From: a virus
Direction: 5' to 3' (one strand)
Length of the DNA stretch: 37,788 bases
Virus record (IMG/VR): IMGVR_UViG_3300007510_000027
Span: 1 to 37,788 of that record
Every line of letters begins with the position of its first letter. Position 1 is the first letter of the stretch. The notes below the pieces were generated by a model that saw nothing but the letters and a program-made list of their open reading frames with translations, ran no database searches and was not told the DNA's origin. A program made the position numbers and the translations under genes. Positions 2,806 through 30,513 of the stretch are shown piece after piece.

Positions 2806-3164
2806 GCAGTCTAACAAAGACATGGATTTTAAACGCTCTCTTTATCTATCTGGTCCCTGTGCTGCTAACGATATTCACTCAAAATGAGTTCTTTATCTTC
2901 CCTTATGTCGCAAGCTATACCGTTATTGAGATACTTTGGGAGCGGAGAAACGCAGAAATTTCGCGGACAAGACTCTTTTTCGTCTACTGGATCACTCTTG
3001 CTTACAACTTTCTGTTGTTATTTTCCTGTTCCTGGCTTGTTGTCACTCTGTTTAGGATGGAATTTAGCCACTGGATTACGCACCCCTTGATTTTGGCGTT
3101 CCTGTTTTTTATGTCAAAAATCGAGGTGGCAATTGATAATAGAATTTACAGGGTATCCCAATGA
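2802..3164 (+). CDS. Small multi-spanning membrane protein between GroES-like and GroEL
   Basis: 120 residues. Three to four hydrophobic segments are visible: about residues 8-26, 30-45, 56-83 and 93-105. Short charged stretches (WERRNAEISRTR) fall between them. The GTG start overlaps the TGA of the GroES-like gene (GTGA), and its own TGA overlaps the groEL ATG (ATGA), so translation of all three should be coupled. I recognise no family. Being locked between two chaperonin genes suggests a linked role, such as bringing the complex to the membrane or a membrane substrate, but this is inference only. Confidence 0.75.
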   Translation: MSSLTKTWILNALFIYLVPVLLTIFTQNEFFIFPYVASYTVIEILWERRNAEISRTRLFFVYWITLAYNFLLLFSCSWLVVTLFRMEFSHWITHPLILAFLFFMSKIEVAIDNRIYRVSQ

Positions 3165-4837
3165 TTATTAATCGATTAAACTCAGGGGTCTGTGCGGAGA
3201 AAAACATACTCTCTGCCTGTGCGAAGATAGCCAAGGCCGTAGGTTCAACACACGGACCAGGTGGGCGTCCGGTCATAATTGATACGCCTACTACTTATCC
3301 TCAGGCAACTAAGGATGGGGTGTCCGTGGCCCGTAATCTTTATTATTTGGAGGATACATGGGAGCGAATTGCGGGGCAGATGTTAATCAATGCCGCCAAC
3401 AAGCAACTGGCTGATACCGGAGATGGTACTACCGCAGTTCTTGTCCTTGCGAACGAACTTATCCAGCGCGGACGGAAGGCGATCAACCGGGGTGTGAACC
3501 CTATCCAACTGAAGGAAGGGCTAGACGTAGCGTGCCGTGAAATTACCGAGGAGCTCCGATTATTGAGTCGGGAGCTAAACAGCCCCTCAATGGTTCTTAA
3601 TGTTGCAACCATTGCCTCGAATAGCGATAAGGAAATCGGCGGGCTCATTGCCGACGCGATTACAAGGGTTGGTGAAAACGGGATCGTGGATCATGTATTA
3701 TCGCAAGACCGGCACCATAGTGTTGATTTTACTACGGGTTATGAATGGCCGAAGGGGCCGCAGTCGCACCTCTTTTTCAATATCCCCGGACGCATGGAGG
3801 CTGTCTTTGATGAGCCACAGATTTTGGTCACTGATTTGCCGATGACGCGGATTTCAGAGCTAGAACCGTTGGTTAAAAGGATCAAAGAAGACTCGGAAAA
3901 GAGAGAGACTTTCCGTCCGCTGGTAATCATTGGTGAGGCTGATCCGCACGGAGAAGTGTTGCCTATACTTGCTCATAACGCAGCGTCCGGACGGGTACAC
4001 TCAATGATTGTCCCGATGGACGGGCGGGATGACGAGAAGGATTATCATTTACAGGATATTGCAGCCCTTACAGGGGCGACGTTTATCACCCGGCACAAGG
4101 CGATGCGGTTGCAAGATACCAGGGTTTGGGATTTAGGTACATGCGAACGAATAAAATCAACGCCACGGTCAACTTCAATTATTTTCAATCAACTAACGGA
4201 GGATCAGCGTACCCGGAAAGATGCTCTGGCAAAAGAGCTTCATGATATTGTTGGCGAAGACAAAGAAACGGCGTCTGTTGCTATTCTTGTTGAATACGCG
4301 AAGAAACGATTAGCGCGTGTCACCGGTGGCGTTGCCCGGATTAGAGTAGGCGGGAAAACAGAGTCCGAGCAGGCGGAGATTGCTGCACGTGTAGATGACG
4401 CGATAAGGGCGACACGTTCAGCCCAAGAGGAGGGTGTTGTCCCCGGTGGTGGCATGGCGTACATACTGGCAAAGAACGAGTTGCATATGGAAAACACGCT
4501 TGACCTGCTAGGTGCTAGTAAGAGCATGAAAATTGGATACGAACTTCTTGTCCAGTCGCTTGATGTGCTGTTTGATAATATCCTGAAAAATGCGGGGATT
4601 AATCCGCGCACAGCAAAATGGGGCGTATACACAAACGCGGGTTCGTATCCTGGTTATGATGCATACAGGAAAGAGACGGTGGGGGATATGTTCGACGTCG
4701 GCATTATCGACCCGACAAAGGTCGTGCGTTCAGCCCTTGAAAACGCGGTCAGTGTTGCCGGGTTGCTTATGCTTTCCGGCACGATGATCAGTACAGAAAA
4801 ATCGGAGGCGGCACAATTACAGGAACTAAAGTCTTAA
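3161..4837 (+). CDS. groEL: Phage-encoded GroEL-type chaperonin
   Basis: 558 residues, close to the 548 of E. coli GroEL. It is an ATP-driven folding chamber and probably handles phage structural proteins. Group I signatures stand in order: T30-H-G-P-G-G-R36 (normally TLGPKGR), KDGVSVAR (51-58, with catalytic D52), GDGTTAVLV (87-95, nucleotide Asp), an apical segment with LQDIAALTGATFIT, RVTGGVARIRVGGKTESE, DDAIRATRSAQEEGVVPGGG and GIIDPTKVVRSALENAVSVAG. ATPase residues look intact. The C-terminus ends in ELKS without the Gly-Gly-Met tail. In the apical domain the GroEL phrase APGFGDRRK becomes VPMDGRDDEKD. It starts inside the preceding stop (ATGA). Confidence 0.97.
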   Translation: MIINRLNSGVCAEKNILSACAKIAKAVGSTHGPGGRPVIIDTPTTYPQATKDGVSVARNLYYLEDTWERIAGQMLINAANKQLADTGDGTTAVLVLANELIQRGRKAINRGVNPIQLKEGLDVACREITEELRLLSRELNSPSMVLNVATIASNSDKEIGGLIADAITRVGENGIVDHVLSQDRHHSVDFTTGYEWPKGPQSHLFFNIPGRMEAVFDEPQILVTDLPMTRISELEPLVKRIKEDSEKRETFRPLVIIGEADPHGEVLPILAHNAASGRVHSMIVPMDGRDDEKDYHLQDIAALTGATFITRHKAMRLQDTRVWDLGTCERIKSTPRSTSIIFNQLTEDQRTRKDALAKELHDIVGEDKETASVAILVEYAKKRLARVTGGVARIRVGGKTESEQAEIAARVDDAIRATRSAQEEGVVPGGGMAYILAKNELHMENTLDLLGASKSMKIGYELLVQSLDVLFDNILKNAGINPRTAKWGVYTNAGSYPGYDAYRKETVGDMFDVGIIDPTKVVRSALENAVSVAGLLMLSGTMISTEKSEAAQLQELKS

Positions 4838-11337: not shown

Positions 11338-12243
11338 ATGCTACAGACTACACTATTCGACAACGTTACCGGCTTAATGTCCAAAAACATTAAGTACGCC
11401 ACTGTCCACGCTTTTACTGAATATAAAAAAGAAGTGTGGGCGTTCGCTATGAAAGAGAAGACTGATCAGAAGTATGAACAGTATATGGGATATGAAGGGT
11501 TTGGGGCAGCCCCAGGGATTGATGAAAGTGGCGATATTGTCCCCGTCGATTTCGAGGAGGGTTATAAAACAACTATCCCGCAGAAACAATGGGCGTATGA
11601 GGTCCGTGTAACCTGGCAGCAACGCCGGTTTGCTACGAAGGCCGCAAAGTTCGCGAAACAAATCGGGTTCTTCCTGGGCCGGTCTGCTAATCTTCGCTAT
11701 GAGTATACCGGGGCTGATATTCTAAATAACGGGTTTACCGATACCGCAGCCTATCGCGGTGGTGACGCGAAACCATTGTTTAGCGCGAGCCACCCATGGA
11801 AAACCGGTGGAACATATTCGAACGTATTGGCCTCCGCTGATCTTTCGAAAACGGCGCTGGTAAATGGACTAAAGACCATCCAGAACGCAAAGATGGAGCA
11901 GAGTATCCCGGCAGCCCTGAAGGTTAAGAATGTAAAGATAGGCTACGAGAATCTCTTTAAATTGCCGGAGCTGCTCAAGTCTTCGCTAGACCCCGAGAGC
12001 GGAAACAACACGTACAATGCGATCCAGGATTTCGGGATAAAGAAAGTGTTAAATCACTACGTTACCGATACTGATGCCTGGTACATAGGAACCGACCGTT
12101 CACACCTGTATATCGTGGAAGCGACTTCTCCGTTCTTAACAACTGAGTCGTACAACAACAAAGAGGTCGGTGAAAATATTTGGATGTCGTTTAACAACGG
12201 GTTTACTGTACCGCTTGGAGAGTTCGGGAACGCAGGTTCTTAA
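11338..12243 (+). CDS. Major capsid protein (Mu gpT / HK97-fold type)
   Basis: 301 residues with SD AAGGGAGA. Features match the Mu gpT-like group of HK97-fold capsids: an N-terminal helix/arm, a central QKQWAYEVRVTWQQRRF strand-helix, a long helix (AKFAKQIGFFLGRSANLRYE), the characteristic LFSASHPWK with a nearby Gly-rich turn, TALVNGLKTIQNAKMEQ, and a terminal beta region with DAWYIGTDRS. It should form the head shell, folding perhaps with help from the phage chaperonin (inference). The next gene follows after 20 nt. Confidence 0.8.
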   Translation: MLQTTLFDNVTGLMSKNIKYATVHAFTEYKKEVWAFAMKEKTDQKYEQYMGYEGFGAAPGIDESGDIVPVDFEEGYKTTIPQKQWAYEVRVTWQQRRFATKAAKFAKQIGFFLGRSANLRYEYTGADILNNGFTDTAAYRGGDAKPLFSASHPWKTGGTYSNVLASADLSKTALVNGLKTIQNAKMEQSIPAALKVKNVKIGYENLFKLPELLKSSLDPESGNNTYNAIQDFGIKKVLNHYVTDTDAWYIGTDRSHLYIVEATSPFLTTESYNNKEVGENIWMSFNNGFTVPLGEFGNAGS

Positions 12244-12263: not shown

Positions 12264-13262
12264 ATGAGAAAATTTTTATTGTTTCTACTAGTCGCCCTTT
12301 CTCTGGTTGGTGTTGCTTCGGCAGGACTAACCAGATACCCCGATGGTGTTTCAAGTTTCGGGATGCCAATCATAGGGAGTGGCGACCTGTTAACAACAGG
12401 GACAACGTTTTTCGTGTCCAGTTCAGACACTAAGGTTGGGTCTGATGCGAACAACGGGGAAACTCCGGACCAGCCATTTAAAACCGTCAGCGCCGCTGTC
12501 ACTATCGCCGCTGAGGGGCGAGGCGATTTAATTCTGGTGATGGCCGGGCATAAGGAGGTTGTGGCGACTTCGGACCTTGCGCTGAATACGGCAGGGATTA
12601 GAGTTGTTGGACTTGGCTTGGGTGACTATCGACCCCAAATAACCATTGGTAATTCAGGGATTGGTGCAGACATTAACGTTACAAGTGCGGATGTTTCCGT
12701 TGAAAACATAATTTTCATTGCGGGGATTGATTCATTAACCAACGCTTTTGATGTTCGCGCAGATGGTTTTACTATGGCTGGTTGTGAGTTCAGGGGAACT
12801 GCAACAAACCAGGTTGACCGCTGGATAATGGTTACTAACAACATTTCACGATTTAATTTTTCCGATAACAAAGTGCGGCAAACAACCGCAGGCGGTGCGT
12901 CGTTCCTTGAGGTTGGGATATCATACGCATGGGACACAACAGGAGGGGGAGAGCTGGAAGATCATTACATTGGGAGTAATGATATCGTTGGTGACTTCTC
13001 TATTTCAGCTATCAATAACGGTGTTACCGCTAATGATATTCTGGTTGAGTACAACACTATCGACAATCTGAATGCTTCTGATGCTTGTATTTCTGTTAAC
13101 GCGCTTACGGACGGAACGCTCAGATATAACACACTCCGGATTGCAACGGATGCAATAGGGACATGGATCACGCCTACTCCTAATGATGTTCAACTATATG
13201 AAAACTATGGTGTGAATGGGGACGCAGAGACAGGGGTACTGATAGGAACCCCCTCTCAGTAG
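12264..13262 (+). CDS. Exported right-handed beta-helix-like protein
   Basis: 332 residues. Residues 1-20 are a textbook Sec signal (basic MRK, leucine-rich core, VASA cleavage site). After it come FFVSSSDTKVGSDANNGETP and QPFKTVSAAVTIA, the opening commonly seen in parallel beta-helix (pectate-lyase-like) proteins. Repeating turns with Asn/Asp ladders follow (INVTSADVSVENIIFIAG, MAGCEFRG, FNFSDNKVRQ, VEYNTIDNL, LRYNTLRI). Such folds bind or cut polysaccharide in phage tailspikes. No catalytic set is identifiable. A signal peptide on a phage structural-region protein is odd. SD AAAGGAGA precedes ATG; a terminator follows. Confidence 0.75.
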   Translation: MRKFLLFLLVALSLVGVASAGLTRYPDGVSSFGMPIIGSGDLLTTGTTFFVSSSDTKVGSDANNGETPDQPFKTVSAAVTIAAEGRGDLILVMAGHKEVVATSDLALNTAGIRVVGLGLGDYRPQITIGNSGIGADINVTSADVSVENIIFIAGIDSLTNAFDVRADGFTMAGCEFRGTATNQVDRWIMVTNNISRFNFSDNKVRQTTAGGASFLEVGISYAWDTTGGGELEDHYIGSNDIVGDFSISAINNGVTANDILVEYNTIDNLNASDACISVNALTDGTLRYNTLRIATDAIGTWITPTPNDVQLYENYGVNGDAETGVLIGTPSQ

Positions 13263-13284
13263 TACGATTAGTTTAGTAGATATC

Positions 13285-13325
13285 AAACAGGAGTAGGGGT
13301 GTTCTCCTGCTCCTGTTTTGTTTTA
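13285..13325 (+). terminator. Strong rho-independent terminator
   Basis: AAACAGGAGTAGGGG pairs with CTCCTGCTCCTGTTT (one U-G at the tenth base, another near the top), TGTT loop, followed by TGTTTT. It ends the capsid/beta-helix transcript. Confidence 0.85.
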
Positions 13326-13335
13326 CGGAGTACAA

Positions 13336-13533
13336 ATGTCGGCAAGCAAACTTTTAGAAACTTTATCACGCGGAGTTAAAACCCGGTGCAGCATTTCCGG
13401 TCTGTATTTTTATCAGGATGAAATGGTCAGGGACCCTCAAGGACAATGGACAAACCCTAAGTTTGTTAGGTTTGACAAAGGCCGAAGTGCGTATAAGTCC
13501 GGTCCCGGCTGGGAACGTTGGGATTTAGGTTAA
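13336..13533 (+). CDS. Small conserved-type phage protein
   Basis: 65 residues from ATG 13336 with SD ACGGAG. The frame extends to TTG 13318, but that lies in the terminator. Pattern: an N-terminal helix, RCSISGLYFYQDEMVRDP, then QWTNPKFVRFDKGR and a Gly/Trp-rich end. I recall small phage proteins that read R-C-[SD]-I-x-G-x-x-x-x-x-x-x-M-V-x-D-x-x-G in tail or head-completion neighbourhoods, though without known function. It is the first gene after the terminator. Confidence 0.7.
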   Translation: MSASKLLETLSRGVKTRCSISGLYFYQDEMVRDPQGQWTNPKFVRFDKGRSAYKSGPGWERWDLG

Positions 13534-13554
13534 CTCGCTAGAAAGGAATATCAA

Positions 13555-13890
13555 ATGAAAAAGATTGCATTACTTATAGCGGGTTTATTACTCGCTACCT
13601 CTGTTTTTGCGGTATATACGGTAGAGAGAGATTATAATGGGAAAGTAACACAAAACACGGTTACTATCGGGAAGAACACAACAACCACGATTAATCTACT
13701 TACGACTCACTATAAAATGAGTGTTTACAACGATTCTTTTAGTGTTCTTTATATTGGGGGGCCAACGGTGACATCCGTTAACGGTATTCCAATTTATCCC
13801 AGCGGAAACTTTACGATTAAGGGTGACGCACTTATCCATGGATGGATGAGTAGCACCAACGACATTAAGTCATTTGAACTCTACGAATAG
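13555..13890 (+). CDS. Small exported beta protein
   Basis: 111 residues with SD GAAAGGAA. Sec signal at 1-19 (MKKIALLIAGLLLATSVFA). The mature part is Thr/Asn-rich, with strands VTIGKNTTTTINLL, SVLYIGG, YPSGNFTIKGDALIHGW. It looks like a single jelly-roll or beta-sandwich module of the kind found in phage tail accessory proteins (N-terminal IxV...G repeated, final ELYE). No family assigned. Part of the signal-peptide cluster. Confidence 0.75.
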   Translation: MKKIALLIAGLLLATSVFAVYTVERDYNGKVTQNTVTIGKNTTTTINLLTTHYKMSVYNDSFSVLYIGGPTVTSVNGIPIYPSGNFTIKGDALIHGWMSSTNDIKSFELYE

Positions 13891-13901
13891 GAGGCAGCAA
13901 T

Positions 13902-15023
13902 ATGAAAACGTTTACAGGGTTATTATTTGCGGCTCTTTTTTCGGTAGGGGCTTTTGCGCTGGAAATCAATAATCCGTCAGGTGGGGAGTCTGTCATATCT
14001 GATAAGTCCGGCAAAGGCGGGGAATACGTAAAGATCAATAGCGGAGAAGACGGTTACACGACGGGAACTATTACGGGATCTGTTGATGAAACATTTGTTA
14101 CCGACAACTTTCAAGCTGGTGCGGTTGTTCTTACCAGCACATTGGAAACGGGCGACGCGTTAACGATTGTCGAGGGTAGTGATCCCGGGTCAATTGGCGC
14201 AACCAAAGTGTCTATCTGGAAGGATAGCGCGTCTGATACTGTCTATATTAAAAACGGGAAGGCCGCTGGGGGGCAGGTTCAGCTGGCCTTAAAGAACAAT
14301 GGGGACATTGATGTGGAGGGCGCGGTATCTGCCAACTCATTCACGGGGTTGGATGATATGTCTGAACAAGCCTCAAATAACGTTACGATTACTGGTGGTA
14401 GCATCACAGGTATTGCGGGTGAATTAATCAGTATTAATGTCAAACACGAGGTTTCGTTTAATGCTCAGGTGACATTTAACCAGCGGGTCCATTTTGAAAC
14501 GGGGCTAGGATCAATAACGCTCAATGCGTTCTCTACGGTCAACGTAGCTGACAATTACGTTCCTAAGTACGATGCCGCAACGGGGCGTGTTGACTGGGAG
14601 GCGGATGGTGGTGGTGCGGGTGCGGGGAACTCCACTATTGTTACCCAGACGGTTCAGTTTCAAATCCCAGGACAATGGGCAGGCTCTGTATCCCAGAACC
14701 TTTTACGTGATTATGCATTGATGGGCTATGAATGGAACATGGGTGCTGCCCGGTTGGTCAATGTAAAGGTATGGGTAACTGATGAGGATAGTGGTGCAGT
14801 AGAGCCCGATGCGGTGTTATTGAAAAACGGAAGTCCTGCGGCCTCTGTTAATGTTTCCGGGGCGGCTAACGCCTGGGTGACGACAACGAATTTTGCGAGT
14901 GCAACAATAACTTTCGCGGATGGTGACGACCTTGAGGTAGGGTCTAATGCAGGGGGAACAAATAATGACAGCAAAAACTTGAGTATGCAGCTTACCGTGA
15001 CAATGAACGCTCACGCGCCATAA
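13902..15023 (+). CDS. Exported fibre-like protein
   Basis: 373 residues with SD GGAGGCA. Sec signal at about 1-19. The mature protein shows fibre-style sections: SVISDKSGKGGEYVKINSGE, VYIKNGKAAGGQVQLALKN, GDIDVEGAVSANSF, repeated NVTITGGSITGI-like turns, and VPKYDAATGRVDWEADGGG before a C-terminal beta domain (YEWNMGAARLVNVKVWVTDE). Phrases such as G-D-I-D-V-x-G and T-G-x-V-x-W are common in shaft and head-binding parts of tail fibres. It presumably recognises or coats a surface. No enzymatic motif seen. Confidence 0.7.
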   Translation: MKTFTGLLFAALFSVGAFALEINNPSGGESVISDKSGKGGEYVKINSGEDGYTTGTITGSVDETFVTDNFQAGAVVLTSTLETGDALTIVEGSDPGSIGATKVSIWKDSASDTVYIKNGKAAGGQVQLALKNNGDIDVEGAVSANSFTGLDDMSEQASNNVTITGGSITGIAGELISINVKHEVSFNAQVTFNQRVHFETGLGSITLNAFSTVNVADNYVPKYDAATGRVDWEADGGGAGAGNSTIVTQTVQFQIPGQWAGSVSQNLLRDYALMGYEWNMGAARLVNVKVWVTDEDSGAVEPDAVLLKNGSPAASVNVSGAANAWVTTTNFASATITFADGDDLEVGSNAGGTNNDSKNLSMQLTVTMNAHAP

Positions 15024-15034
15024 AGGGGAAAGCT

Positions 15035-15793
15035 ATGCGTAAATTATTTATAACAGCTTTCCTTTCAACAATAGCCTGTCTCTTATTGTTTGCCGCGATA
15101 ACGCCACCCAGCAGAAATGGGTTTGGTAATGACGAGAACGCACAGCTCTATATTATTGAGGGCGCAGCCTCGACGGACTTCCTTAACGATAGGGCAGATA
15201 CAGACGAGAACAGAACAATAACCGTTAAGGGGAATCCTGTATGGGTATCCGGAAGCGGCTTGTTTGGCAAAAATACCATGCATTTTGATGGGACGGGAGA
15301 CACTATTGATGTCGATGATTCATCTGATTGGGATCTTGGCAGCGGTGATTTCACGATAGATTTCTGGGCTAAATTCACGGACTTCCAGGATAACGGCGCT
15401 GTTATTGGGCAGGTTGCGTATAACAACGCCAACGACCATTCGTTTGTTGTTTATTTTGAGTCAAGTAACAAGATGTATTTAGATTTCTATGATACAGGGC
15501 CCTCCCGGATAACCGATTTCTACATGGATACGAACGGGTTAACGGATAATAAATGGACCCATGTGGCCGTCGTTAAGGATGGCGTAAACATAACTTTTTA
15601 TGCTGATGGGGTTAACACTAATACGTTCTCAACTTTCACACATACTATTAGAACGGTCGCTTTACCGTTAGCGATAGGTGGCGGGTTCGCGGCGGCCGCA
15701 TACAACGCAAGCGCGAATATAGCGGAAATGAGGCTCAGTAAAGGGGTTGTTCGTTGGCGGTCGAATTTTACACCCCCGAATCGTGGCTATTAG
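15035..15793 (+). CDS. Exported LamG/concanavalin-like lectin protein
   Basis: 252 residues. The signal is about 1-20, with a long hydrophobic core. From about residue 70 the Laminin_G_3 pattern is clear: MHFDGTGDTIDVDDSSDWDL, GDFTIDFWAKF, a middle strand with SSNKMYLDFYDTG, NKWTHVAVVKDGVNITFYAD, and a final ANIAEMRLSKGVVRW. This fold usually binds sugars, suiting a role in surface attachment. The protein ends RWRSNFTPPNRGY, a common ending for such phage proteins. SD AAAGGGGAAAG precedes ATG. Confidence 0.8.
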   Translation: MRKLFITAFLSTIACLLLFAAITPPSRNGFGNDENAQLYIIEGAASTDFLNDRADTDENRTITVKGNPVWVSGSGLFGKNTMHFDGTGDTIDVDDSSDWDLGSGDFTIDFWAKFTDFQDNGAVIGQVAYNNANDHSFVVYFESSNKMYLDFYDTGPSRITDFYMDTNGLTDNKWTHVAVVKDGVNITFYADGVNTNTFSTFTHTIRTVALPLAIGGGFAAAAYNASANIAEMRLSKGVVRWRSNFTPPNRGY

Positions 15794-15808
15794 TAAGGAG
15801 GATTAAAG

Positions 15809-16282
15809 ATGTACGCAATCAGAAAGAGCCCTATTCTTGTTATTGAGGTTGTTGGTAATGATGATATTAACAACTATCCGGAGAACATATACCGGAAGGA
15901 AGCCACCGTGCCTGGAGGTGTGTTGGATAAGCATTTAAAATGGGATAATGGGGATCCCGAAACTGGAACGTTAGTTGAAATGTCTTTATCTGAGCAGCTT
16001 GCCGTAGATGCAGGCGATTTGGATACGGCTAAGGCGACAAAAAAAACAGCAATGAAAGTAACTGGTCGGGCATGGGTCTTTGGCGACTACGCAACCGCCG
16101 AAGAGGCTATGGATGCGCAGCGGGACGCGGCACTGGAGGTCCTTCAACAAACTGAGGTTGACTCGATAGTTGCGAAGATTAACGCGGCCAGAAGCCATTA
16201 CAAAAACGATTTGGTTCCGGCGATAAATAATGCAAGTTCGATTACTCAGTTAGATGCTATTGTTTGGAATCCGCCGGCGTAA
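15809..16282 (+). CDS. Tail-fibre-associated hypothetical protein
   Basis: 157 residues with SD AAGGAGGA; no signal peptide, unlike its neighbours. The N-terminus reads VIEVVGNDDINNYPENIYR, the middle is charged (DLDTAKATKKTAMKVTGRAW), the C-terminal half is helical (EEAMDAQRDAALEVLQQ, IVAKINAARSHYKNDL) and it ends ASSITQLDAIVWNPPA. The ending is of a type I associate with small proteins encoded beside tail fibres. It may be a fibre chaperone or a short structural partner; this is inference. Confidence 0.65.
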   Translation: MYAIRKSPILVIEVVGNDDINNYPENIYRKEATVPGGVLDKHLKWDNGDPETGTLVEMSLSEQLAVDAGDLDTAKATKKTAMKVTGRAWVFGDYATAEEAMDAQRDAALEVLQQTEVDSIVAKINAARSHYKNDLVPAINNASSITQLDAIVWNPPA

Positions 16283-16292
16283 AGGGGGTGCG

Positions 16293-16499
16293 ATGTTTTT
16301 ACGTAGTAACAAATACGGGACAAAGTATAAGTGCGAAATAACAAATCAAGGGTTCTATGATTGCATGAGTGAAAGAGGCTATACCGCGGCCATCTATCAG
16401 AAGGACATAAATAGCAGTAAAGAAGGCTATACAAGGATAGGGGAATCTGTTGTTATTAAAGCCAAATGTGACTTTACCCCTGTGGGATTAAGAAAATAA
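16293..16499 (+). CDS. Hypothetical small protein
   Basis: 68 residues from ATG 16293, chosen over an in-frame ATG at 16254 because AAAGGGGGTG stands directly before it and 16254 lies inside the previous gene. Rich in Tyr/Lys/Gly with three cysteines (KCEITNQGFYDCM; AKCDF). No domain recognised and no signal peptide. Confidence 0.65.
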   Translation: MFLRSNKYGTKYKCEITNQGFYDCMSERGYTAAIYQKDINSSKEGYTRIGESVVIKAKCDFTPVGLRK

Positions 16500-16510
16500 A
16501 AGGAGAAGTT

Positions 16511-17026
16511 ATGAATCGTTTCACATTGCTAACACTAATTCTTTGTTTACTTATGTCAACAGCGTTCGGTGATTGGGGCGCGAAAGACAAGCAATATTTG
16601 AGAGATAACGGGATTGTTCAAGGGCGAGGAGAAGGCGTTGATCCCCTCACTGAAAAAGACGTCAGCAAGGCTGAGGTTGGTATCATATCCATGAGAGCAG
16701 CCGCGAAAGAAACCGAACTGACCGTTGAGCCCATGATTTTAGTCACTGCTGAATCGCTGTCTAGTATATCTGATAAAAACACCGATAAAATTACCAGGTT
16801 AACCGCCAGGATCAAGGCGTTGGAGTCCGGAAAGCCGGTTCCGAAACAATATTTTTATTCTTATGAGTTGATTAATTTACAAAACGAATGGATTAATGCC
16901 CTGGATTTCCGGGCAGGAATGAATCTCTCACTCCCCACAGACCCAAAGGTTTTTATTGGATACAAGTCAAATGCGGTTTATCCGCATAACGTTTATATTG
17001 GGGTTTCCGGTTACGGCGAATTTTAA
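16511..17026 (+). CDS. Exported protein with SLH-like segment
   Basis: 171 residues with SD AAAGGAGAAG. Sec signal at 1-20 (core LLTLILCLLMSTAFG). Directly after cleavage, residues 22-65 resemble one S-layer-homology repeat: W, then YLRDNGIVQGRGEGVDPLT and a K-A-E-VGIISMRAA helix (SLH consensus: A-x-x-x-L-x-x-x-G-I-[IV]-x-G-x-x-x-G-x-F-x-P-x-x-x-[IL]-T-R-A-E). A short coiled coil (about 90-115) and a beta C-terminus follow. SLH units hold proteins at bacterial cell-wall polymers. One copy only, so treat as suggestive. Confidence 0.7.
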   Translation: MNRFTLLTLILCLLMSTAFGDWGAKDKQYLRDNGIVQGRGEGVDPLTEKDVSKAEVGIISMRAAAKETELTVEPMILVTAESLSSISDKNTDKITRLTARIKALESGKPVPKQYFYSYELINLQNEWINALDFRAGMNLSLPTDPKVFIGYKSNAVYPHNVYIGVSGYGEF

Positions 17027-17041
17027 TTAAGGGGAGACACT

Positions 17042-17815
17042 ATGATAAATAAGTTTTTAATATTCCTGGTTATTATACTTTTGTCTCTTCCTGCTATGGC
17101 GGCGGATTACCCCTCACTTTCACATTCGTTTGTGGCGCGGCAGCTTATTAGAGCGTCGCAGATTATGCAGAACTATAACGATCTAAGAAATGGGATGATC
17201 GACGGTACAAAAAAAATAAATGTAGCTGAGCTATGGACCAACGGAACGCTGATGGTAGACAACTCTCAGCGGGTTACGGCGAACAAGCTTGTTGTCGATA
17301 CCTTTGTCATGGATGGTGCGGATTTTTACTCTACAAGTAAAAATAGTACCGTTAGCGCAAATATAGGAAACTTCTTTAATGTGACAGTCAACAACCTGGT
17401 TTATGTTTCTGGCAATCTTGGCGTTGGTACAGCTAACCCCACTCAATTACTTCACGTAGTAGGCGATAATGTTAGTAATTATATAAAAATAGAAACTGAG
17501 AGCACTACGCATGATGCGGCATTTTGGTCAGTAGGACCATCTGGTAGTGTTTATACGGGAATACAGCCTAATGTTGGCGCAGATAATCGTGATTGGGTTT
17601 TATACAATACCGCTGTACATATTGTTGTTCAGCCCGATGGAGACGTTGGGTTAGGTATGTTAATCCCATCAAGGGATTTACATGTTAATTACACAATGAG
17701 GCTTGAGCCTAGTTCCGTGACACCATCGACCCCGGCGGCTGGTGATTTTTTCTATAACGGGAACCACAATCAGGCTGTTATTTATGATGGTACAAACTGG
17801 CAGAGCTTATATTAA
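17042..17815 (+). CDS. Exported tail-fibre-like protein with GxGTxxPxxxLHV repeats
   Basis: 257 residues with SD AAGGGGAG. Sec signal about 1-20 (core FLIFLVIILLSLPAMA). After an N-terminal helix, the middle shows fibre shaft elements and two copies of the GVGTANPTQLLHV / GLGMLIPSRDLHV motif (about 128-141 and 202-216). That motif is typical of fibre proteins that carry an S74 intramolecular chaperone. No S74 domain follows here; the end is GDFFYNGNHNQAVIYDGTNW, a small terminal domain often seen in fibres. Last of the signal-peptide genes. Confidence 0.7.
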   Translation: MINKFLIFLVIILLSLPAMAADYPSLSHSFVARQLIRASQIMQNYNDLRNGMIDGTKKINVAELWTNGTLMVDNSQRVTANKLVVDTFVMDGADFYSTSKNSTVSANIGNFFNVTVNNLVYVSGNLGVGTANPTQLLHVVGDNVSNYIKIETESTTHDAAFWSVGPSGSVYTGIQPNVGADNRDWVLYNTAVHIVVQPDGDVGLGMLIPSRDLHVNYTMRLEPSSVTPSTPAAGDFFYNGNHNQAVIYDGTNWQSLY

Positions 17816-17824
17816 GGGGATATT

Positions 17825-18703
17825 ATGAGCCTTGTATATCGCAATGTATACTCATTAATGAATGATATTTGTAGGTCACAGGAAACCCAGGATATCGATC
17901 GCAAAACACGGGCCTGCTCAGAGGGTTACAAGCAGCTGATTGAGCGGATGGTCTATATGACCAAGCCACCGAAGGAAATGCGCACGGAAAGCAACCTGTC
18001 CAACAGTGCTGATGTAAATACCGTGGCACTTCCCACTGATTACATTCGTTATCAATCAATCTGGTTTCTGGTAAATAGTAACTACGAAAAGTTTACTGAT
18101 GATGAAATAGTGTCATTACAGGAACTTATGGAGTACGCAAACACAAATCACTATGATACATCAAATACAGGAACTCCGCGCATGGTGGCTGTTGATGGCG
18201 ATCAACTTGTATTCGATAAACATTTTGCTTCCGCGGGAACAACCAACGTCAAATTGTCCTATTATCAATACCCCACTGAGATTACGGCTTATGACCAATT
18301 GAGCATATCATTTACAGCAACTGCATTTTCGGATGGGGAAACAATTACCGGTGGCACATCAGGCGCGACGGCTACTGTAGTTACATCAACAACGTCACTG
18401 GTTGATGTTGAATCGACTAGCCTTAACGGCTCATTTCAGGCACTTGAGAAAGTGACCGGCGGCACATCAGGAGTTGAGGCTATTGTAACAAGGATTCCGC
18501 CACCGTATACCGAAAAGGTTCAAGTGTTAGAGCTTGGTGAAAAATATAAACTTGCTATCGCCACGGCAGGGGCAATGATGTATCTCTATATGACCGGCTC
18601 CGTTGAGGCAAGTGAGAAAGATAATACCCTGGATAATCTTATCAAGCAGTTGGCGGCGACCAATGAGCAGGGAAATAGAGTATTAAGGCCGAATGTACGA
18701 TGA
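17825..18703 (+). CDS. Head-tail adaptor (P22 gp4-like) with inserted beta region
   Basis: 292 residues with SD GGGGAT. The helical N-terminus (VYSLMNDICRSQETQDIDRK, a helix with YKQLIERMVYM), the segment VALPTDYIRYQSIWFLV and a helical C-terminus (KYKLAIATAGAMMYLYMTGS, then LIKQLAATNEQGNRVLRPNVR) fit phage adaptor proteins that sit under the portal. In between, residues about 160-225 form a Thr/Ser/Gly-rich insert with two copies of a TGGTSG motif. The stop overlaps the next ATG (ATGA). Confidence 0.65.
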   Translation: MSLVYRNVYSLMNDICRSQETQDIDRKTRACSEGYKQLIERMVYMTKPPKEMRTESNLSNSADVNTVALPTDYIRYQSIWFLVNSNYEKFTDDEIVSLQELMEYANTNHYDTSNTGTPRMVAVDGDQLVFDKHFASAGTTNVKLSYYQYPTEITAYDQLSISFTATAFSDGETITGGTSGATATVVTSTTSLVDVESTSLNGSFQALEKVTGGTSGVEAIVTRIPPPYTEKVQVLELGEKYKLAIATAGAMMYLYMTGSVEASEKDNTLDNLIKQLAATNEQGNRVLRPNVR

Positions 18704-22971: not shown

Positions 22972-25900
22972 ATGGCTTGGCAATACGGACTTTTCCAGGA
23001 CGATAAAGAAGAGCTTGCGCCGGGGATTTACGCGCCGGAGCCACCTGATCCCGCTGAGGGCTGGACACCAGGATTATTCCAGGATGTTGTTCCCTTCCGA
23101 CCACACCCCGTAACCGCGGGATTTCATGGAGTACAACCCGAAGAGGACAGATTTAAGCCACAGGAAGCCGTGCAGTCGCTTGAGGCAGATATTGCAGATT
23201 TCCAGGTTCCACGTGGAATGGAAAAAGGGCAGGTTCCCGAACTAATCACACAGCCACAGGCGTTTGCTCAACGGCAAGCCGACATTGCGGCGCAGGCACC
23301 CGCATACCCCTCGTTTATGCCTACGACCACAGCACCTAAATTTGATGTGCCGTATTTCGGTAACGCGAAACGGCAGGCAGCCGCGGCACTTAAACTTGAT
23401 CCTGCTACCTACATTGAGAATGCGGACGAAATGAATAAGCTTTTTATGAAGCAGGAGAAAGAGTTCAAGGAAAAAGTAAAGAAAACAATCAGGGAAAACA
23501 TCAATCGTGTAGCTGTTATTGCCGAAAAAGCAGAAACCACAGATGATCGTGGGTTGATAAGGTCTATATTTGATTCTGCACAACGTGGAAACACTAGTTT
23601 TATTTTAGAATTATTAAGTAGTAAAGCCGCGGAAAAAGAACTGCCAGAGGGTCCGGTTTTTAATCTGATAAATACTTATGACCAAATAATAACAGAGGAC
23701 CCCATTGAGGGTAAAAACTTTTTTGATAGCGCGATAATCGACGCCGCAGCGTCCAGCCCGGGAATGGCCCATGGTATCAAAGAGCGGGTAAAAGCCTATG
23801 CGGGTGTTGCTGGCACGACTGGCGTTGCCGGGTTTCTGGTTGGTGGCCCCGGTGGCGCGCTAACCGCCATGAAGGGTGCACACCCGTTGTCCAAGGCAGC
23901 CAGTGTTGTTGCGTCACAACGGATATGGGCAAAGCAGGGTAAAGGGCAGATATACAAAGACCTCAGAGATAATGGGATAGACCCGGACCTTGCCAGGATG
24001 GTGTCAACTGTTGGCGGACACATTTATGCCGGCATTGAAAACGCGCAATTAGAGATATGGGGCAAGGCGGCCACAGGTAAATTCGGGTTGAAAGGTATAG
24101 GTTCCGGTAAGTTCGGTAAACTATTTTCACAAGGTGCTATTGCCTGGCTTGCGAACAGGGGGATTACTACAGCAGCGGAAATACATGAGGAGGGGTTACA
24201 GCAACTTACTCAGGATTTGGCACTAAACACGGCACTTGCTCTTGATCCCGGTGCTGACAAAGAAAAAATGAGGGGGGTAAAAACTCTTTCAGACAGATAT
24301 TTTCAGGCAATGAAAGACTCAGCCGGTGCGGTTGGTGTTATAACATTCCTAACGGGCGTACCCGCGGATATTCAGCGCAAGGTCACAGGCGGGAAGCTCC
24401 TGGATGTCGCGCCGGAGGTTAAGAAGACACTTCCAAAAGATTCCTTCGTTGTGGATAACAATGTGTATAAGTCTGAGACGGGACCGTTTGGAGAAGTTGC
24501 GCCACAGCAAATTGGAACGATAGACCAGTTTGATATCACAGGAGAGGAAAGAGGTGTTGAGCGTGATAAAGAAGGTGAACGGGTTCGAGGTGAGGAGCCA
24601 CCGGCCAGGGAAGAACCTGGGCGGCCCGTACAAGAAGAAAGAAGAGGCGAAGCGGAGATTACGCCAGCTCCGAAAGCAGAGCCCGCGGTAGCCGAACCGT
24701 CCGCCGAATTACCGTTTGACGGTAAGGCAGCGGGGGCAACCGAGCGCGCGATTGATTACGGTGCAAAGATGGATGAAGCCGAATACGCCAGGATCAAAGC
24801 TGAACGCGAAAAGGTGCTAAAAGAAACCGGAGCGATTGAAGAAAAAGCCATGGCCGGTGATAAAACACTATTCCAGGCAATGGGTGATAGCGCGACGAAA
24901 GGGCAGCTATTACGTGAAGCAGCGGAAGCATACGAGGCGAAAGGCGAAAAACCTGTAGGAAAAAAAACAGAAGCCATAGGCTACGTGGACGAGCAGGTTC
25001 AGCAGGGAACCATAAGCGAAGGCTCCGGGAATCTCCTCAAATACCTTGTATCAACAGATGACGAGTTTGATAAAAACACAACAGTACAAATAAGTGATAC
25101 TGTTAAAGAGATTACGGACGATATGTTTCGGGCCGAAGGTATTGATCCCGTAACGCTATCTCTGGAGGAAAGGAAACTCTACAGTGTTAAAGGTAGAACA
25201 GTATCATATCATCAGGAGGGAGAAGGGGTTTACCAAACCGCTATCGAACTCTATAAGGGTCACGACGCAGACACTATTGTCGAAGAATGGTATCACAGAG
25301 GTTACAACCGGCTCACAGAAGACGATAAAAAAGTTTATCAGGAGTACCATAAAAAAACCGGAGATAAACGAATCGTAGAAGAACACTTCGCCCAAGAAGG
25401 CCGTGACCTCTTCTTTTCGGATAAGGCGCATGAGCAGGCGGGGACAATCCGTAAGATATTCGATAACGCAAGGGATACCCTCAAAAAACTGATCGCCAGG
25501 ATAAGAGATTTACGAAAAGCAAAAGTACCAAAGAAAATTCAAGGACTATATAGAAAAGCCGCTGGTATTGAGCCACAGAAAGTGCTTGCAGAAAAAGTAG
25601 AAAAGCCACAAAAAGTGCCTGCAAAAAAAGTAGCACCAAAACCGAAACCCACCAAAAAGTTTTTGGAACTAAAGAAGCGGCTGGAAAAGCCGACGCTAAC
25701 TAAACCTGTTAAAAAAGGACTTAAAGCAAAGTTGGCAGCGGAGGAAACATTGATGGGGCTGTCAACTTATAAGCGGTCCCTGGTTGAGTCCGAAGTAAAG
25801 CGGCTCAAGGCGCAGCATCGCGCAGAAACTACGGGTTATAAACCCAGCAAATACATTCCGATGATTGACCCGGATACCGGTGATGTTGTTGGAAAAATCT

Positions 25901-28900
25901 CTCAGCCGTCAATCACCCCACTTAAGGAATACGGGATAAAGCCAGGCGCGCCGCTTTTCGCGTTTGTTGATGGCGTTATCCGGGTTATGTCAGAGGGTTC
26001 TCAGACCATGCCACCGGATGTCCGGTGGTTCAAGGATGAAGTTGTAGACAAACAGAAAGCGGCTACGGACCCGTTGCTCAAAAAAGCATACGGACTACAA
26101 GTAGAGGCGATAGATAACTACGACTATGAGGGCTATCAATTAGTGAAAGGAAAAATCGATGAGTACCAAAAACTATCCGAGGCCGATAAGCGAGAAGCGT
26201 TCCAGATCACTACAGAGGGAGATCAACCAACTCTTTTTACCACTCCAACGACTAAAGCAGAAGCAGACAAAGAAGAAAAAAGACTAGCCGACAAAAAGAA
26301 AGCAGAGGCAAAAGCAAAAAAAGAGACTGAGAAAAAACCACCTGAGCAGAAACCAATGGATCAGCTGTCATTTATTGATATGAGGGATGTTACAGAGGGG
26401 CAAGTATCTTTGTTTGAGAACTTCCAAATACAAAAAGAAGGCGAGCTTATAACATCGGAAAGGTTTGATGGTGATGACCTTTATTCAATGCTTGGAACAA
26501 TGTACGGGAATGAGCTCCGGCTTGCCGTGCTTGAGAGAAGCCCAGACAAATTTAAAAAATCAGTAGAAGCAAGGTTGAACAGGCTTGAAGGAGACCTTTC
26601 AAACCTTGCCGATAAAATAATAGAAGAAATAGAGCCAAGGATAAAAGGCTGGTTAGATGAGCATGGTGCATACACACCAGAAACATGGGTGGATTGGATT
26701 CTTGACGAAGAGGGAATGGTTGGCGAACCAATGTTGAGGCCAGATGGAACGGCTAAGTTAGCGGCTGTTGGCGGTAGTCAAACCATTGATATTGGGGATG
26801 CGTTTATTGACAGATACAATAAAGAGCTTGCGACCGAGCCACCAAGCGTAGAAGAGGCAAGGGACGAACTTATCGGGCGCGGTGTTGATGAAGAGGAACT
26901 TTCAGAGATGGAAGACTATGAGGTTATTGAAACATGGGAAGAGTATGAAAGAAATGAAAACCCAGACTACCGATATTTTGCAGATTCGTTTGTTTACTTT
27001 GTGGAATTATACGGCGGAGAAATTGAAGCACTTAAAAACGATTCAGAAGTATGGGAGTTGTTGAGAGATGTTTTAGCAACCGACGGATATAAACAGTGGT
27101 ACAGTGGCGGCGGAATATCTGCTGACACAATCCAAGGCATTAAAGATGTTCATGAAGAAATGGTTGACGCTAAAACGGCCAGGGAAAAAATCACGGCCAT
27201 AGATAAGGCAATAAACATTCAGCACCATACCGGAAATCTTGCGGACTTTTTGGATATATCACAAGATCAGCTTGATGAGCTGGCGGAAATTGGAGAAGTA
27301 GCAACATCAAAAGGCGAAAAAATAAAGTCTATGGACTTTGACGTAGAAGAATTTCATTACCAACTACGCTACGAGGGCCCTTTTGTCCGTCCGGATTTTG
27401 AAAAACAAAAACTGATCGAGGCTGAGGTCCGCAAGCTCAGGGCGAAACGAGCGAGGCTATTCCGTAAGCCACAGGTCACAAAGGGACAGGAAATCACCGT
27501 TGATGTGGCTGAGACACAATTACCAGAGGAGCTGCTTTACGAACGCGCTCAAATCACCGTAGAGATCAATGCCCTTACCGACGAAGTGTCAGACAAGGTT
27601 AAGCGTTTACTCATCCAGTACGCGCAACGGGTGGGCTTACGCGGGGAACCGTTCAACCGTGTGGATACCAAAGTCAAAAATGTCAGAACAACCAAGCAGC
27701 TAACCAGGGCCATCGCGGAGATCGATGAGCTTGTTCAGAAGCGTATGCAAAGAAACCTTGTCGCCAAGGTTATAAGGACTGTCCGGAAGGAACGCAAGCG
27801 ACTCAGGGAAATCAAGAAGGGAAAGAAAAAACAGAGCAAACTGTCTTTGTGGTCAAACAACAGACTAGAGGAATACCTGGATATTCTTGAAATAGATATC
27901 AAAGAGCGAAATATTGAGAAGTTAAGAAAGAGCCAGGCGTTTTTTGAGGAAAACCCGGACGCGCCCATCCCTCAAGAGTTAATGAATGATATCATCGCAC
28001 TTAATCGGGATAACGTCAGGTTGATGTCTGCCAATCAGTTACAAGGAATTTTGTCCGACATTGAGAGCATAAAAAAACAGGGGTACACATCTTTCAAGTT
28101 AAAGGAAGCGCAGCGGAAACGCGCCTTGGACGCGGCCGTTAAAAAGACGGTTCCGCATATTAAGCCGCCGTCTGATAAATCTCCGTTTGAGATAGCCGCG
28201 AAGGGCAAAGGGAAGAAATCAATATATAAAACACTTCAGAAGGCGTGGTGGAACGCCCGCCGTGCTGAACGGATATTGAATTGGTTGGTTGGATACAAGG
28301 ACACGCCAATGAAAAAAATGGTGATGGATAAAATTCTTAAAGCGGAAGCAGCAGAACTCGTTGAAATGGACGCGCGGACACAGGAGTTCAAGGAGAGATA
28401 CAGCGGCCTAGATATCCTCAGCGCCAAGTTGGATGCAAAAACATATTCGGTCCCCGTTGAGATCAGCCGTCCGGGTGAGGCTCCGGTCATTGAGAAACGA
28501 GACGTTGAATTGTCCCTGAACAATCTGATGTTCTTTTACGCGCATAGTAGAAACCAAAAGGGTAGAAATCACCTGATGGGTTGGGGTATTAGCGAGGAAA
28601 CAATTGATTATCTCGCTGATCAACTTCCGGAAAAACACAGGGCGGCGATTGATGATCAGCAGAGATACTACGATCGGGTTCAATGGGGGCGCGTGAATGA
28701 ACCCTTCGAACAAGAGCATGGTATTTCCATGCCCAGAGAATCGTATTATATGCCCATGCCAAACGTGAAAAGCGATAACGCTATAAACGAAATCGTTTCC
28801 GACTTGGTAAAAATGATGTCGTCGCGGCCGTCAGCAGTAGCTAAAGGGATGACGATTAGTCGCACAGATTCCGGCACCCCGTTTGCCGATATGGATTATT

Positions 28901-30513
28901 TTGGAACCGTTTTAAGGAATATGAGAATGGTTGAGCACTACATAGCGTTTAACCAGGTACTAAGAGAGGTTAACCAGTTTTTAAACAGCAAGGAAATGTC
29001 AGCAGCGATTGAGGCAAAGAGTCCACTGGCCAAAGAGAAAATATCACGCTGGCTTGGAACGGTCGCCGCGGGAAGATTGGAAGCGGCCGCTGATGAAATT
29101 GACGAGGCGTCCGATGTCGTTCGGCTCAATGCCGTCTACTCTGTACTGACCTACAATATTGTAACGATGATGACGCAGATACCCTCATATATACAGGGGT
29201 CAGCGCATGTTAAGGCGGGGCACATGGCGCGATCACTTATCGCGTATATGGGGCACGCGAAGGAAATCAACGCGTTTGTTAACGAGAACTCAACAATGAT
29301 GAAATATCGGGGAGAATCGTTTTTGAGGGAACAGGTAGAGTTTATGGCGAAAGACCGAACCTTTGACCTGGTAAAAACGGAGTTGGAACACGACTCGAAA
29401 AAACGTGGTGGGCGTGGTTGGGAAAGAACAGTACGCCTATTTGATCAATGCCGTAATTTCGGGATGGCTGGAATCCGTATCACAGATAAGACAGTTACAA
29501 ACATCCTTTGGGCCGGGAAGTATTTTGAAGTTATGGATAATATCGGAGATACATACAATGAATCATCCGCGAAATACCAGGAACGGCATAAACAAGCAAA
29601 ATATGAGGCAGACGAACTCATCAGGACAACCCAGCCGATGGGCGGCTTGGTACACCTCCCCGAGTCGTTCAGGGTTAAAGGGATAAAAAAACTATTCGCC
29701 ACGTTTAAAAACCAGCCCAACCAAAACATCAATGGGATTGCTGACTTTTTGGGCGCATGGAAAGAAGGAGAGGTCAAAACCGACGATCTTTTATATAAGC
29801 TTTTCATGTATGCAATACTGAGCCCGATGGCTTTCTACCTGGTTAAGCATGGATTGTCACCCAAGAGACTCAAGGACGATCCCGAAGGCTTGGCAATGGC
29901 ATTTCTTCAGGGGACGGCTGGAGGGATACCGTTTTGGGGTGAAATAATAAACGGGTTTGGGTATGCGCTTGCAAACGTTTCACGTGAAAAACGCGGTGCA
30001 AAGGCCCAGTGGATTCCGGGTGGAGTTGGTGAGTTGCCGTTTTGGGGTGGTGTTGGTGATCTTATACGCGCGATTCAGGGGTCAGGAAGGTTATCACGGC
30101 TATCAGCTATAGGAGCCCGACTTGGCGGGGTGCCTGCCCCAAGGTTCGCCCGTGTGGGGCTTAGGACAGGACTTGAAAGGATAGGACTGGAAAAAGAAGA
30201 TTGGACAGCGAAGGCGGAAAAGAAACGCCTTGAAGAGGGAGACATCAGGCCGTTGTTCTGGTCCGAAGGCGCAATGAAAGACGTGTCCGTCACAGCGGGG
30301 ATGGCGCAGCGGTTCGTTTCGTCGTCATCAGTCCGTGACAAAAAGAAGTTCCTCGATTGGTACTACAAAAAGCTCAACAAGGACCAACAAAAGAAAGCCA
30401 GGGCATACATCCAGAAGAATCGCACAATCGGGGGAAGGCCAATTACGAATGACCGTTGGGATAGGCGGTTGGCATCTATGATAAAATCAGTAAAAAAGGC
30501 GAAAAAGAAATGA
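22972..30513 (+). CDS. Giant 2513-residue internal virion/polyvalent-type protein
   Basis: Probably stored in the capsid and injected with the DNA. Regions: a Pro-rich start with two [YG]-G-L-F-Q-D phrases; Gly/Ala-rich hydrophobic stretches at about 276-301 and 447-465; a zincin-like segment whose HExxH is changed to E771-E-W-Y-H775, with EEHFAQEGRDLFF about 30 residues on; a Lys/Pro linker (about 865-910); an acidic part (about 1140-1460); very basic helices (about 1570-1680); then a long conserved-looking C-terminal body. The last body includes YAHSRNQKGRNHLMGWGISE, VYSVLTYNIVTMMTQIPSY and a hydrophobic helix at about 2272-2292 (FMYAILSPMAFYLV). The layout is like large polyvalent proteins of phages. 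No intact catalytic motif is certain. Confidence 0.75.
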   Translation: MAWQYGLFQDDKEELAPGIYAPEPPDPAEGWTPGLFQDVVPFRPHPVTAGFHGVQPEEDRFKPQEAVQSLEADIADFQVPRGMEKGQVPELITQPQAFAQRQADIAAQAPAYPSFMPTTTAPKFDVPYFGNAKRQAAAALKLDPATYIENADEMNKLFMKQEKEFKEKVKKTIRENINRVAVIAEKAETTDDRGLIRSIFDSAQRGNTSFILELLSSKAAEKELPEGPVFNLINTYDQIITEDPIEGKNFFDSAIIDAAASSPGMAHGIKERVKAYAGVAGTTGVAGFLVGGPGGALTAMKGAHPLSKAASVVASQRIWAKQGKGQIYKDLRDNGIDPDLARMVSTVGGHIYAGIENAQLEIWGKAATGKFGLKGIGSGKFGKLFSQGAIAWLANRGITTAAEIHEEGLQQLTQDLALNTALALDPGADKEKMRGVKTLSDRYFQAMKDSAGAVGVITFLTGVPADIQRKVTGGKLLDVAPEVKKTLPKDSFVVDNNVYKSETGPFGEVAPQQIGTIDQFDITGEERGVERDKEGERVRGEEPPAREEPGRPVQEERRGEAEITPAPKAEPAVAEPSAELPFDGKAAGATERAIDYGAKMDEAEYARIKAEREKVLKETGAIEEKAMAGDKTLFQAMGDSATKGQLLREAAEAYEAKGEKPVGKKTEAIGYVDEQVQQGTISEGSGNLLKYLVSTDDEFDKNTTVQISDTVKEITDDMFRAEGIDPVTLSLEERKLYSVKGRTVSYHQEGEGVYQTAIELYKGHDADTIVEEWYHRGYNRLTEDDKKVYQEYHKKTGDKRIVEEHFAQEGRDLFFSDKAHEQAGTIRKIFDNARDTLKKLIARIRDLRKAKVPKKIQGLYRKAAGIEPQKVLAEKVEKPQKVPAKKVAPKPKPTKKFLELKKRLEKPTLTKPVKKGLKAKLAAEETLMGLSTYKRSLVESEVKRLKAQHRAETTGYKPSKYIPMIDPDTGDVVGKISQPSITPLKEYGIKPGAPLFAFVDGVIRVMSEGSQTMPPDVRWFKDEVVDKQKAATDPLLKKAYGLQVEAIDNYDYEGYQLVKGKIDEYQKLSEADKREAFQITTEGDQPTLFTTPTTKAEADKEEKRLADKKKAEAKAKKETEKKPPEQKPMDQLSFIDMRDVTEGQVSLFENFQIQKEGELITSERFDGDDLYSMLGTMYGNELRLAVLERSPDKFKKSVEARLNRLEGDLSNLADKIIEEIEPRIKGWLDEHGAYTPETWVDWILDEEGMVGEPMLRPDGTAKLAAVGGSQTIDIGDAFIDRYNKELATEPPSVEEARDELIGRGVDEEELSEMEDYEVIETWEEYERNENPDYRYFADSFVYFVELYGGEIEALKNDSEVWELLRDVLATDGYKQWYSGGGISADTIQGIKDVHEEMVDAKTAREKITAIDKAINIQHHTGNLADFLDISQDQLDELAEIGEVATSKGEKIKSMDFDVEEFHYQLRYEGPFVRPDFEKQKLIEAEVRKLRAKRARLFRKPQVTKGQEITVDVAETQLPEELLYERAQITVEINALTDEVSDKVKRLLIQYAQRVGLRGEPFNRVDTKVKNVRTTKQLTRAIAEIDELVQKRMQRNLVAKVIRTVRKERKRLREIKKGKKKQSKLSLWSNNRLEEYLDILEIDIKERNIEKLRKSQAFFEENPDAPIPQELMNDIIALNRDNVRLMSANQLQGILSDIESIKKQGYTSFKLKEAQRKRALDAAVKKTVPHIKPPSDKSPFEIAAKGKGKKSIYKTLQKAWWNARRAERILNWLVGYKDTPMKKMVMDKILKAEAAELVEMDARTQEFKERYSGLDILSAKLDAKTYSVPVEISRPGEAPVIEKRDVELSLNNLMFFYAHSRNQKGRNHLMGWGISEETIDYLADQLPEKHRAAIDDQQRYYDRVQWGRVNEPFEQEHGISMPRESYYMPMPNVKSDNAINEIVSDLVKMMSSRPSAVAKGMTISRTDSGTPFADMDYFGTVLRNMRMVEHYIAFNQVLREVNQFLNSKEMSAAIEAKSPLAKEKISRWLGTVAAGRLEAAADEIDEASDVVRLNAVYSVLTYNIVTMMTQIPSYIQGSAHVKAGHMARSLIAYMGHAKEINAFVNENSTMMKYRGESFLREQVEFMAKDRTFDLVKTELEHDSKKRGGRGWERTVRLFDQCRNFGMAGIRITDKTVTNILWAGKYFEVMDNIGDTYNESSAKYQERHKQAKYEADELIRTTQPMGGLVHLPESFRVKGIKKLFATFKNQPNQNINGIADFLGAWKEGEVKTDDLLYKLFMYAILSPMAFYLVKHGLSPKRLKDDPEGLAMAFLQGTAGGIPFWGEIINGFGYALANVSREKRGAKAQWIPGGVGELPFWGGVGDLIRAIQGSGRLSRLSAIGARLGGVPAPRFARVGLRTGLERIGLEKEDWTAKAEKKRLEEGDIRPLFWSEGAMKDVSVTAGMAQRFVSSSSVRDKKKFLDWYYKKLNKDQQKKARAYIQKNRTIGGRPITNDRWDRRLASMIKSVKKAKKK

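Follow-up and report, generated by a model that had tools for sequence, protein, structure and literature searches.

Gene layout of the locus

The window, i.e., the whole stretch of DNA analysed here (IMGVR_UViG_3300007510_000027, positions 1 to 37,788), is by gene content a short-tailed phage with nearly all genes on the plus strand. The genes run in the order terminase, GroEL, portal, scaffold, cement-like protein, capsid, a cluster rich in signal peptides (SPs; 12264-17815) and adaptor, followed by a stabilisation-like protein, large proteins and then endolysin and holin, several of these names being assigned by position alone. Capsid homology (tblastn 1e-17) and collinear structural genes place the window among the Pam1/HTVC023P-type podoviruses, which share a related capsid and a similar order of terminase, portal, scaffold, capsid and adaptor but have no SP cluster between capsid and adaptor. 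The cluster and its two landmarks are:

11338-12243, plus strand: major capsid protein without SP, landmark (tblastn to annotated capsids, best 1e-17; Pfam Phage_capsid_4 8.9e-5, which is under the curated cut-off)
12264-13262, plus strand: SP protein 1, right-handed beta-helix spike family (SP 12264-12323; mature part predicted from G21, 12324)
13336-13533, plus strand: small protein without SP (ORF with a purine-rich stretch upstream; no family match in Pfam or PHROGs)
13555-13890, plus strand: SP protein 2, 111 aa (SP 13555-13611)
13902-15023, plus strand: SP protein 3, 373 aa (SP 13902-13958; no domain match)
15035-15793, plus strand: SP protein 4, LamG domain (SP 15035-15094; Pfam and PHROGs matches)
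15809-16282, plus strand: protein without SP, 157 aa (ORF)
16293-16499, plus strand: small protein without SP, 68 aa (ORF)
16511-17026, plus strand: SP protein 5, 171 aa (SP 16511-16570)
17042-17815, plus strand: SP protein 6, 257 aa, fibre-like (SP 17042-17101; weak PHROGs tail-fibre matches)
17825-18703, plus strand: adaptor-position gene without SP, landmark (position; phrog_2941 virion structural protein 3.6e-4; phrog_358 1.8e-5)

Elsewhere in the window, a full-length GroEL gene lies between terminase and portal (3161-4837; PHROGs 1.2e-97), whereas several related phages of the Pam1/HTVC023P type have a GroES gene near the portal in its place. About one-fifth of the window is taken up by a 2513-aa ORF (22972-30513, no Pfam match), perhaps an internal or ejected virion protein. 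A 215-aa ORF (31797-32444, no Pfam match) is on the minus strand of this otherwise plus-strand genome, and a gene with a PAPS reductase domain is found at 36400-37179 (Pfam 9.7e-24).

Six of nine consecutive genes encode predicted Sec signal peptides

The sequence-only reading of this DNA had assigned Sec signal peptides to six of the nine consecutive genes between capsid and adaptor, and our analysis agreed in every start, frame and coordinate. All six proteins display the sequence hallmarks of Sec substrates cut by signal peptidase I: a positive n-region, a core of mean Kyte-Doolittle hydropathy 2.5-4.0 and a small-x-small site after residue 19-20. Moreover, a purine-rich Shine-Dalgarno-like stretch precedes every one of the six genes, and no transmembrane stretch follows the SP in any of the proteins (highest 19-residue mean 1.35). 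The predicted cuts (slash) are MRKFLLFLLVALSLVGVASA/GLTR for 12264, MKKIALLIAGLLLATSVFA/VYTV for 13555, MKTFTGLLFAALFSVGAFA/LEIN for 13902, MRKLFITAFLSTIACLLLFA/AITP for 15035 (the weakest site among the six), MNRFTLLTLILCLLMSTAFG/DWGA for 16511 and MINKFLIFLVIILLSLPAMA/ADYP for 17042. Judged by these sequence features, export of the cluster proteins via Sec and their cleavage by signal peptidase I are very probable.

SPs were called by a home-made rule which, on controls, picked up seven of ten established SPs of E. coli and did not flag any of six membrane anchors. In the window, 6 of 43 ORFs were positive, every one inside 12264-17815, while in related phage loci the rule called 17 of 1398 genes (1.2%), several of them short or membrane-like. 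Given this background rate, the probability of at least six positives among nine genes is ~3e-10; composition-preserving shuffles of the first 35 residues satisfied the rule in 0.9-10% of cases. Of the 130 loci in which a capsid was detected and downstream genes could be scored, 122 lacked any such SP gene among the next ten genes; one or two were present in seven loci, and six in the window. (A further contig, G001, was left out of this count because its capsid gene was missed by the gene caller.) Single queries of viral contigs with the capsid, portal and GroEL returned no close relatives of the window, and in phage records with capsid homology the SP cluster was not found and SP genes were almost nil. 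One apparent capsid SP (L160, 5112-6206, minus strand) was rejected: it is a ~60-residue N-terminal extension with a hydrophobic stretch and probably reflects a wrong start.

Protein 1 belongs to a capsid-adjacent beta-helix family

The assignment of a beta-helix to the product of 12264 was upheld by family profiles and by AlphaFold2, whose model is a right-handed beta-helix (mean pLDDT 83.9) preceded by an N-terminal arm of low confidence. By fold it is nearest to viral beta-helix proteins, to enzymes active on polysaccharides and to tailspikes, and some relatives of protein 1 have Pfam and PHROGs beta-helix and tail-fibre matches; none of its residues was recognised as catalytic. IMG/VR searches yielded a family of 118 genes in all, some of them duplicates; in loci whose capsid gene could be placed, the family member is usually the first to fourth gene after it. 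Profile, position and the arm motif LTx[FY]P[NDH]G all place protein 1 in this family. In genome contigs only two family homologues were found, both SP-less (an Anaerolineae MAG and a Parvibaculum MAG).

The closest podovirus genes (the 'lacto-N-biosidase' of MW202647.1 and those of L092, L093, L101 and L104) are homologous to protein 1 over most of its length and share its capsid-near position, conserved arm and fold family, but have no SP and begin with the arm. The MW202647.1 gene (31% identity, 5e-22), also directly behind a capsid gene, begins MSLLQSPDG, and this start aligns with that of the mature part of protein 1. By the home-made rule, only four of the 118 family genes carry an SP (those of the window, G001, L153 and L196), with a further one borderline (L238); the remaining members start directly with the arm or an arm variant, e.g., M-GLTNFPNGLSSFGVPVL. 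Protein 1 is therefore a variant with respect to the direct arm start of nearly all family members.

The signal peptide of protein 1 replaces the start methionine

In the window, protein 1 begins MRKFLLFLLVALSLVGVASA/GLTRYPDGVSSFGMPIIG. Here and in G001 the start Met is exactly replaced by the SP, giving A/GLTRYPDGVSSFG where unexported homologues have M-GLTNFPNGLSSFG; protein 1 thus shows, at the level of predicted sequence features, an exact SP graft. Since the SP stands in place of the Met, cleavage would give back the N-terminus of the unexported homologues. The first Leu of the arm motif is residue 3-5 in 17 of the 19 motif-bearing members; the two exceptions, the window and G001, have it at residue 22. 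No ATG, GTG or TTG codon is present at the mature N-terminus of protein 1, and when the whole collection was scanned for a non-Met residue before the arm, the genes found besides that of G001 were all SP-less, with just one or two residues added.

Within the protein, conservation is highest in the arm: the arms of the two SP carriers are 61% and 83% identical to those of other members, versus 25% for the body. An arm that is so conserved, yet would become exposed only once the SP is cut off, speaks for a protein that would still dock on the particle.

Proteins 2-6 are candidate virion proteins

For protein 4, the proposed LamG domain was confirmed (Pfam Laminin_G_3, 1.7e-17), and PHROGs matches include phrog_3545 (3.8e-28) and baseplate and virion families. 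The fibre-like character of protein 6 gained weak backing, its PHROGs tail-fibre matches being at 0.0014-0.005, while the SLH-like character of 16511 gained none, Pfam giving no match even with E values up to 1 allowed. Proteins 2 and 3 (13555 and 13902) have no convincing Pfam or PHROGs family, although protein 2 is weakly similar to small SP-less proteins between the capsid and adaptor genes of relatives. Proteins 2-6 may also be virion proteins; as 2, 3, 5 and 6 have no convincing homologues in the fetched loci, position (and, for 6, the weak fibre matches) is what would point to a virion nature for these four.

A matching cluster in a distant phage

When related contigs were searched for the same cluster, as the sequence-only reading had proposed, a matching arrangement was found in G001 (IMGVR_UViG_3300015370_000037, 29.9 kb), a phage distant from the window: BLAST links the two through the portal (26%, 1e-31), the cement-like protein (35%), protein 1 (39%) and little else. 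From capsid to adaptor, G001 encodes an SP beta-helix protein, two SP-less proteins, SP proteins of 113 and 252 aa, an SP LamG protein (Pfam 1.7e-8) and SP proteins of 101 and 95 aa, i.e., six SP genes with a LamG protein among them. The corresponding order in the window is SP beta-helix, small SP-less, SP 111 aa, SP 373 aa, SP LamG, two SP-less, SP 171 aa and SP 257 aa. For the gene of G001 at 16654, which starts with TTG, an apparent SP was considered doubtful and left out of the count. Further along, G001 encodes an SP protein that has a Phage_depo_C domain (1.3e-7) and whose C-terminal part is like the 252-aa protein. In the protein-1 tree the window and G001 were not grouped, yet a single clade for the two was not rejected (p-AU 0.52); therefore either one or two SP gains are possible for this pair.

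Beyond this pair, the L196 member reads MKFLSKTIGIILIGVFLFTGLSYA/GVNLRYSPLEW where SP-less homologues begin M-GQNLRYSPLEW. Its coat is P22-type (7e-48), different from that of the window, and its exact graft, as predicted, is an independent one. L153 holds one more SP-bearing member. An SP is also found on a LamG-type protein of L198 (6541-7401; GTG start with a strong Shine-Dalgarno), and the SP-less homologues of this protein (4e-28) include genes directly behind an HTVC-type capsid gene, e.g., in L057. L097, whose spike gene itself is SP-less, has an adjacent pair of SP genes (13368-16028; 479 and 405 aa) downstream of its capsid gene. A single sample, IMG 3300015370, is the source of three spike family contigs (L180, L095 and L196), two of them with SPs, a hint that these phages may have an environment or host group in common.

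A candidate route from Sec export to the virion

For protein 1, the proposal that virion-type proteins of this phage carry export signals is well supported, because its family is capsid-adjacent and tailspike-like and its homologues are SP-less; the LamG and fibre-like genes are in keeping with this. The further suggestion of a structure built on exported fibres found no specific support. Our preferred reading, to which we give slightly less than an even chance, is that the cluster is an outer-surface module of a short-tailed phage (spikes, fibres and decoration) turned into Sec substrates, whose products are exported, trimmed and docked on virions after lysis. It would proceed in four steps: i) SPs were joined to virion-type outer proteins, as seen in protein 1 and as is likely for 4 and 6; ii) the host Sec system very probably exports the six proteins and signal peptidase I cuts them, which for protein 1 would leave the N-terminus that unexported homologues have after Met; iii) the freed arm may then bind its old partner, most likely the DNA-filled capsid; iv) holin and endolysin would open the cell, the periplasmic and cytoplasmic pools would mix, and the proteins would meet the capsids. 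Docking of cluster proteins to virions after lysis, as in the last two steps, has an analogy in decoration proteins, which attach late: Dec is able to bind even finished capsids (PMC7602432), and the decoration protein of Pam1, whose capsid is related to that of the window, touches the capsid protein by an N-terminal loop (PMC9698820). These decoration proteins differ in fold from the six cluster proteins.

Export might serve to avoid premature binding inside the cell, to separate sticky lectins or spikes from the assembly process or from polysaccharide precursors in the cytoplasm, to allow folding or modification in the periplasm, or to provide a temporary surface role. Disulfide formation is an unlikely reason, because mature proteins 2-6 (five of the six) have no Cys; of the two Cys in protein 1, one (C174) is common to SP-less homologues. 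Counting against post-lysis assembly, nearly all phages of the family do without SPs.

Alternative explanations

The presence of SPs, the absence of membrane anchors and the lectin-like LamG domain would also suit former spikes or fibres that have become non-virion proteins of the periplasm or cell surface, e.g., blocking superinfection or binding released virions. Tailed phages do export some non-virion proteins through Sec, such as the T4 antiholin RI with its cleavable signal peptide (PMC8385771) and the SP-endolysin (PMC8951688), but both of these are lysis proteins acting in the periplasm, not spikes or fibres. We regard such a non-virion role as unlikely, though worth taking seriously: the arm of protein 1 has been kept at family level after SP gain, which would be needless off the particle, and in both the window and G001 the genes remain between capsid and adaptor. 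Less probable again is that the proteins are secreted free, like free depolymerases, to attach to or cleave the surface polysaccharide surrounding the host and open the way for progeny. The likeness of the beta-helix to polysaccharide-active enzymes and tailspikes, the LamG domain and the Phage_depo_C domain of the G001 SP protein all speak for it; however, protein 1 yielded no recognised catalytic residues, none of the other cluster proteins has an enzyme domain in Pfam or PHROGs, and it is not obvious what the conserved arm would do in an enzyme that acts on its own.

Could the N-termini instead be uncleaved anchors, holding the proteins at the inner membrane where particles are finished? 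The cores are long and hydrophobic and the cleavage site of 15035 is weak, but all six have the small-x-small site at residue 19-20, and the cut predicted for protein 1 of the window, of G001 and of L196 coincides exactly with the N-terminus of the homologues. Ordinary uncleaved anchors, the outcome that the sequence-only reading had named as fatal to its claim, are therefore disfavoured, and we hold this alternative to be quite improbable. That the SPs come from hydrophobic N-termini arising by chance, misassigned starts or faulty assembly deserves very little credence: the rule behind the calls is home-made, but the purine-rich stretches upstream, the lack of a usable start at the mature N-terminus, the ~3e-10 against the background rate and the matching cluster in a second contig, itself close to a refutation, all stand against it.

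Relation to known systems and significance

Tailed phages are taken to assemble entirely in the cytoplasm, and decoration proteins of the Dec/Pam1 kind are made there without SPs. The filamentous phage coat proteins pIII and pVIII are virion proteins with cleavable signal peptides that stay membrane-anchored up to extrusion; by contrast, none of the six cluster proteins has an anchor in its mature part, as an exported coat protein of the inovirus type would, and the window is a tailed dsDNA phage. We found no precedent in open-licence PMC papers for SPs on virion proteins of tailed phages. That a tailed dsDNA phage finishes its virion outside the cytoplasm, with Sec-exported and trimmed spikes or fibres added in or beyond the periplasm, is a tentative proposal that we place somewhat below even; split assembly of this kind is not known in tailed phages.

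For annotation, the cluster is a warning that SP-bearing phage genes should not be dismissed as non-structural. Spike-type proteins bear SP grafts of this precision both in a podovirus lineage and in a phage with a P22-type coat, a recurrence that suggests selection, either for a second compartment of assembly or for spikes acting at the surface.
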